Below, one piece after another: positions 62,558 through 64,000 of a DNA stretch of 64,000 nucleotides (position 1 is the stretch's first letter; every line of letters starts with the position of its first letter). The notes beneath the pieces were generated by a model. The model was not told where the DNA came from, did not search any database, and saw only the letters and a program-made list of their open reading frames with translations. A program made the translations under genes and the position numbers. This DNA is from Sphingomonas sp. (GTDB taxonomy: Bacteria; Pseudomonadota; Alphaproteobacteria; Sphingomonadales; Sphingomonadaceae). The stretch covers positions 186,001-250,000 of the forward strand of contig JABDNH010000003.1 in the NCBI GenBank assembly GCA_013001055.1, written 5' to 3'.

Positions 62558-62878
62558 GTGGCCGACATTTTCATTTCGTACAAGAAGGAAGACCGGAAGG
62601 TTACCGAGGCGCTTGCGGCCGCGCTTGAGGCCGAAGGTCTGAGCGTTTGGTGGGACAATGCGCTCAATCCGAAAGCGGCTTGGGACTCGATTATCGAGCA
62701 GGAAATCGCTGCGGCGAGGAAGGTGCTCGTCTTGTGGAGCCCGCGCGCGGTCAAGTCGGACTGGGTGCGCTCGGAAGCCCATTATGCGCAAGATCATGGC
62801 AAGATGGTGCCAGTGAAGATTGAGGAGTGCACGCTACCCCTCGCCTTCATGCTTCGCCAGGCGGTGGGACTTGTCTAG
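62558..62878 (+). CDS. TIR-domain protein, N-terminal fragment (probable GTG start)
   Basis: VADIFISYKKEDRKVTEALAAALEAEGLSVWWDNALNPKAAWDSIIEQEIAAARKVLVLWSPRAVKSDWVRSEA; ends at TAG 62876-62878. Confidence 0.85.
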   Translation: MADIFISYKKEDRKVTEALAAALEAEGLSVWWDNALNPKAAWDSIIEQEIAAARKVLVLWSPRAVKSDWVRSEAHYAQDHGKMVPVKIEECTLPLAFMLRQAVGLV

Positions 62879-64000
62879 CCAGGACTTCTCTCAATCCAAT
62901 CCCGAGTGGCAGCGCCTCCTCGAGTGGATTGCGGAGAAAGATAGCGCGCGCGTCACGAGTGAGCAGCTTGGCGAAGCGACACCAGCGCCCCGGCTCAAGA
63001 ACAAAAGCTGGCTCGGCCCCAGGAAGCGACCGGCCATCGCCTTTGGGCTTGCCGGACTGATCGCCATTGGCGCTGCGGGCTTCAGCTTTTTGGGCGCTGG
63101 GCAGGCCGAGCCGGAACTACCCCAGCCGGACGTGGTGATCGACCTGTTCGAATCACGGTCGGACATCATCCCGGCTGGCTTTGTGCAGACCATGCACGAT
63201 GAAATGGCGACCGATTTCTCTGCGTCCTCGCGCATAACACCCGAAGACGGGGACGGTACGCGGCGGCTCGACGCGTACCAGCTTCAAGGCTCGATTGACG
63301 CAACCGACGAAGACGTGCGTATTTTTGCGCGCATTTTTGCCCCCGGCATCGATGGCCCCGTGCTGACGACGCGCATGGAGCGGCCGACCGAACAGATGGA
63401 CGCGCTACCGCTGACCGTCGGCAGCAGGCTAGCCAGCCTCATGCGCTGCGTAGCGACCGCTAGCGACAGCACCGGGAGCGATATCGTTCGCTTGCCCGAG
63501 CCCGCGATCAAACCGTGGGCCGATTTTTGCCGCATGACGACTGTCGAAAGTGCCGATATGGGATCGCGCGTTGCCACGCTGCGGAGCGTGGTTGAAGCGG
63601 CGCCCGACTTTGCCAATGGTTGGGCCAATCTCGGCGAGAATCTTGTTTGGGCGAGCCGCGGCAGAGGCGACGAAGGCCGCGCGATGGTTGCCGAAGCCGA
63701 GGCCGCGCTGGACAGGGCGATCGAGCTCGATGACACTACTGCCAAGGCCTATGCCGTCAAAGCGCTAATCGCGCTCGGGATCACCACCGGCAGTTTCGAC
63801 ACAGACAGTCAGGCCACGACATTGGGCAATTTCGATGAATGGGAGAGGCTTGCGCAGCAATCGCTTGACGCACGACCGAGCGATTGCGGCTGCGAAGGCC
63901 CGCAATATGCCCGCGCCAAGCAAATCCTCGGTCAGCCGTCACAAGCCTTGCCGTTGTATCGCCAGGCTGTGAACCAGGACCGCCGTAACATGGGCCATCT
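62868..64000 (+). pseudogene. C-terminal part of the TIR protein in another frame: linker, TM segment, TPR-like region; open to the window end
   Basis: Frame from 62868 reads DLSSQDFSQSNPEWQRLLEWIAEKDSARV...AIAFGLAGLIAIGAAGFSFLG...PDFANGWANLGENLVWA...ALDRAIELDDTTAKAYAVKALIAL with no stop to 64000. Confidence 0.65.

Follow-up and report, generated by a model that had tools for sequence, protein, structure and literature searches.

The DNA analysed here, a window of 64,000 nucleotides from the Sphingomonas sp. genome G000 (G000:C17:186001-250000), ends in what is, judged from its sequence and that of its relatives, one TIR-TM-TPR gene and not two. The gene is interrupted by a single extra base, which divides it between two reading frames. 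The most likely account of this break, and a probable one, is that a dispensable gene has recently acquired a real loss-of-function mutation. The G000 assembly comprises 2.08 Mb in 25 contigs, and is 99.34% complete and 2.09% contaminated.

One gene in two reading frames

The features that make up the locus, in window coordinates and all on the forward strand, are the following:

62558..62878, + strand: ORF of 106 aa with a Pfam TIR_2 domain, from GTG 62558 to TAG 62876-62878; the last TIR helix is lost
62866..62868, + strand: GGG at which the frame changes, with one extra base compared to intact relatives, located by frame-aware alignment to G017 and by a switch in codon bias
62868..64000, and on to 64547 outside the window, + strand: second half of the gene, with the end of the TIR domain, a linker, the TM helix, a periplasmic domain and the TPRs
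62871..62873, + strand: in-frame TTG, a candidate internal start of the second half, with a Shine-Dalgarno-like AGGCGG upstream
about 63036-63092, + strand: transmembrane helix IAFGLAGLIAIGAAGFSFL, with a Kyte-Doolittle mean of 2.1 over 19 residues

As the preliminary description had stated, the TIR ORF stops at 62878, directly after LRQAVGLV. The TPR frame is one base out of phase with this ORF; its last upstream stop is at 62814, and it is open to the end of the window. The earlier observation that this frame stays open for more than 1.1 kb to the window edge was therefore correct, and extension past position 64000 led to a stop at 64547 (L002:3048). With a codon-usage model trained on this contig, the TIR frame was preferred until about position 62860 and the TPR frame afterwards. 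When the G000 DNA was aligned in a frame-aware manner to the intact 657-aa protein of G017, the alignment extended over 649 codons, 326 of them identical (326/649), with 0 stops. Exactly one +1 frameshift was needed, at GGG 62866-62868, which restores the sequence LRQAVDLSS...NPEW..LL.W. The agreement between alignment and coding potential on the frame switch is far beyond chance, and both confirm the earlier proposal that a single-base frameshift at this GGG splits one TIR-TM-TPR gene.

The second half was used as a query against 71 genomes of the genus. The best homologue was that of G017 (44% identity, full-length), an orthologue that adjoins the same L,D-transpeptidase-like gene as the G000 copy. 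Other close homologues were present in G072, G086 and G075 (two copies in the latter), at 31-36% identity, and only a minority of the 71 genomes had a close homologue at all. In each of these five cases the match lies within one ORF of 655-718 aa with the TIR domain at its start; a continuous TIR-TPR ORF is present in G017, G072, G086 and G075, and is absent in G000. The comparison with full-length TIR-TPR homologues that had been proposed in the preliminary description identifies the two G000 halves as one gene of the G017 type, and the five single ORFs refute a genuine fission as the conserved state of the family. Divergence from G017 is greatest at third codon positions in both halves, as expected if the sequence had been under selection at the protein level until recently.

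Domains and relatives of the protein

The first half matched the Pfam TIR_2 profile with E=4.5e-23 and 82.5 bits, above the curated cut-off of 28. The broken G000 ORF covers positions 1-99 of the 122 in the profile, whereas the intact G017 protein covers 1-115; the G000 ORF does not reach a complete TIR_2 domain that includes the last helix. In TIR NADases, the Glu after a conserved Trp is the catalytic residue. The putative catalytic Glu is kept in the window ORF, within an SDWVRSE motif, and W69 and E73 (G017 numbering) are invariant in six homologues. The cytoplasmic TIR of the intact protein may be an NADase.

The preliminary description had also assigned a TM helix and TPR-like helices to the second half. 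The TM helix is supported by hydropathy, while the TPR matches are clear in the homologues and weak in G000: TPR_19 and TPR_14 matched 6/6 homologues scanned, but in the G000 copy, which aligns to G017 along its length, both fell under their cut-offs. The region between the TM helix and the TPRs looks TolB-like by inspection only, with no profile in support of that reading. In the intact protein, the TPR domain probably senses across the membrane and would signal to the cytoplasmic TIR. The identity to G017 is about 79% in the TIR half and only about 43% in the TPR half, and the lower value may reflect a fast-evolving sensor.

The only solved chain matched by sequence was PDB 3h16 (entry "TIR protein"; E=4.3e-05), which we take to be PdTIR. 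The match spans the first 73 TIR residues, up to the conserved Glu; however, the similarity is remote, and the matched chain has 154 aa and lacks the TM-TPR body. There is also similarity between the TIR domain and Thoeris ThsB (Pfam ThsB_TIR, E=3.5e-06; PADLOC ThsB, E=1.3e-05), but ThsB is a stand-alone TIR, whereas the G000 gene has a TM-TPR architecture. Inspection by eye of the ORFs on either side revealed neither the ThsA that would define a Thoeris system nor any other defence partner. The same search that returned the close homologues also found the homologous TM-TPR body in CadC-type winged-helix and class III cyclase proteins of the same genus, in which the N-terminal domain in place of the TIR was Trans_reg_C (L017 and L046) or Guanylate_cyc (L008). 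By these matches, the intact protein is an ordinary TIR-TM-TPR member of a family whose TIR is replaceable by a cyclase or winged-helix domain. In PMC7075850, TIR group 6 is described as large proteins with an N-terminal TIR and C-terminal TPRs, mainly actinobacterial. Compared to the group as described there, the present protein is alike in having an N-terminal TIR followed by C-terminal TPRs in about 650-700 aa, and differs in that the G000 copy is frame-broken and that a TM helix lies between TIR and TPR. Among the titles listed by literature searches, none described a broken TIR-TPR gene from bacteria.

Surroundings and dispensability

Judged by sequence, the flanking ORFs are serine hydrolase-like and L,D-transpeptidase-like. 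G034 is the closest relative: its L,D-transpeptidase shares 93% identity with the G000 one, and the identity in both flanks is about 80-90%. Between the flanks, however, G034 has no counterpart of the segment from about 62425 to 64560, only about 80 bases that bear no convincing similarity to it. At this locus, G017 has DNA similarity to the gene, and none was seen in G012, G018 or G061. Since the closest relative lacks the whole gene, the gene is dispensable; its absence from G034, together with the presence of a close homologue in only a minority of the genus, means that its loss is tolerated. G000 itself has an intact TIR-TPR paralogue at G000:C15 (L030). No RNA families or tRNAs were found near the gene, and a search of plasmids matched the TIR part only, at 35-37% identity.

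Just 3' of the gene, at the window equivalent of about 64565-64596 (L002:3066-3097), there is a terminator-like inverted repeat, which is also conserved in G034 despite the missing gene. Farther downstream, and likewise outside the window, the stretch equivalent to 64633-64877 (L002:3134-3378) matches all five relatives compared and includes a short ORF on the minus strand, ending EEKRKAKMRAEAEAKKPIELADA.

Origin of the frameshift

Most likely, the extra base is truly in the genome and the function of the gene has been lost. A one-base insertion at GGG 62866-62868 would end translation after the TIR beta strands, and the membrane-anchored sensor would thereby be lost; what remains would be a shortened TIR that lacks its last helix, the TM helix and the TPRs. 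No other lesion was found in the approximately 2 kb of the gene, and the event must therefore be either very recent or not real. The latter reading, an isolated mistake in sequencing or assembly (a consensus error) with an unbroken gene in the living strain, would account for the lack of a second lesion and for two halves that both look intact by codon bias and protein conservation, and the assembly, with its 25 contigs, is fragmented. We nevertheless consider it rather unlikely. The run consists of just three Gs and is not a typical error-prone homopolymer, the site is well within its contig, which is 296 kb long and whose nearer end is about 47 kb away, and frameshifts are not in excess in the neighbouring genes.

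This last point comes from a frameshift survey in which about 395 kb of G000 was set against 400 kb from G017 and another 400 kb from G034, with real genes sorted from shadow ORFs partly by eye. The G000 sequence consisted of contig C17 in full, window included, plus seven further contigs in whole or in part. Against G017, multi-frame matches were seen for 8/210 genes (about 210 compared), and on inspection a clean single-base shift judged to be in a real gene was seen in the TIR-TPR gene alone. Between G000 and G034, there were 31/628 frame-change candidates in one direction and 31/635 in the other; most candidates in the survey resemble shadow ORFs or 5' extensions. Because the candidates are equal in both directions, the surveyed sequence is not generally indel-rich. 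The surveyed stretch is without an excess of frameshifts, which is compatible with one local error. A real loss is favoured over a lone error, since there is no general indel problem and the gene is absent from G034. A protein scan and a DNA pattern scan of genome_contigs and a pattern scan of viral_contigs, from which near-identical genomes may be left out, yielded no usable near-identical copies of the site.

Recoding is a far less probable source of the two frames. That both frames are open and coding would fit a programmed +1 shift of the ribosome or phase variation in the G run, but we consider either extremely improbable. The site reads GCG GTG GGA CTT GTC TAG, in which the only homopolymer run is the GGG; no prfB-like or other slippery motif was recognised in it by eye, and homopolymers of at least 5 in the gene are all more than 200 bases downstream. 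Phase variation is very unlikely on these grounds. Programmed frameshifting, for which a slippery site and a break conserved in homologues would be expected, finds no support either, as the protein is encoded in a single frame in all five close homologues. Among the TIR-bearing relatives inspected, two more, both distant, have their TIR and TPR parts split between frames. In G032 (L014), a fragmented assembly, the break is in the region after the TIR; in G090 (L043), a fragmented, 70%-complete assembly, there are three shifts, the first of them near the TIR end. We considered these as recurrences of the G000 break and rejected them, since the breaks are at other positions. Because they lie elsewhere, and L043 has several, a shared programmed site is not inferred.

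The frameshift could also have produced an accidental functional fission, in which a soluble TIR is made together with a separate TM-TPR protein by reinitiation at TTG 62871, overlapping the TIR stop. This codon starts 5 bases before the TAG, behind a strong SD-like sequence whose anti-SD duplex of -10.3 is attained by 0.27% of random TTGs, and neither half shows decay. However, the SD-like bases are also the codons of a conserved Gln-Ala-Val, and their strength at the same place in five close, intact relatives varies from -0.9 to -9.0. The codon equivalent to the TTG is CTG, CTC or CTT in the five close homologues, with no ATG, GTG or TTG start; the TIR half is missing its last helix; and 0/5 of the closest homologues are split. 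A functional split using TTG 62871 is possible but unsupported, and we regard such a fission as improbable. The corresponding single step, by which a membrane-tethered TIR sensor would become a soluble TIR co-translated with a TM-TPR receptor that lacks the TIR and starts at TTG 62871, seems more improbable still. Among the four causes that the preliminary description had left unranked, phase variation and a programmed shift thus fall away, the former as very unlikely and the latter as unsupported, while a sequence error remains beside a real loss.

Annotation should treat the locus as a single TIR-TPR gene with a broken frame, and not as a soluble TIR next to a separate membrane protein. It also illustrates, on a small scale, how a TIR sensor gene turns over: G000 carries a broken copy, G034 has none, and a less closely related species in the genus has an intact one. 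Most likely, the G000 frameshift does not represent a new two-part system, but a freshly broken copy of a dispensable gene, or a local sequence error.
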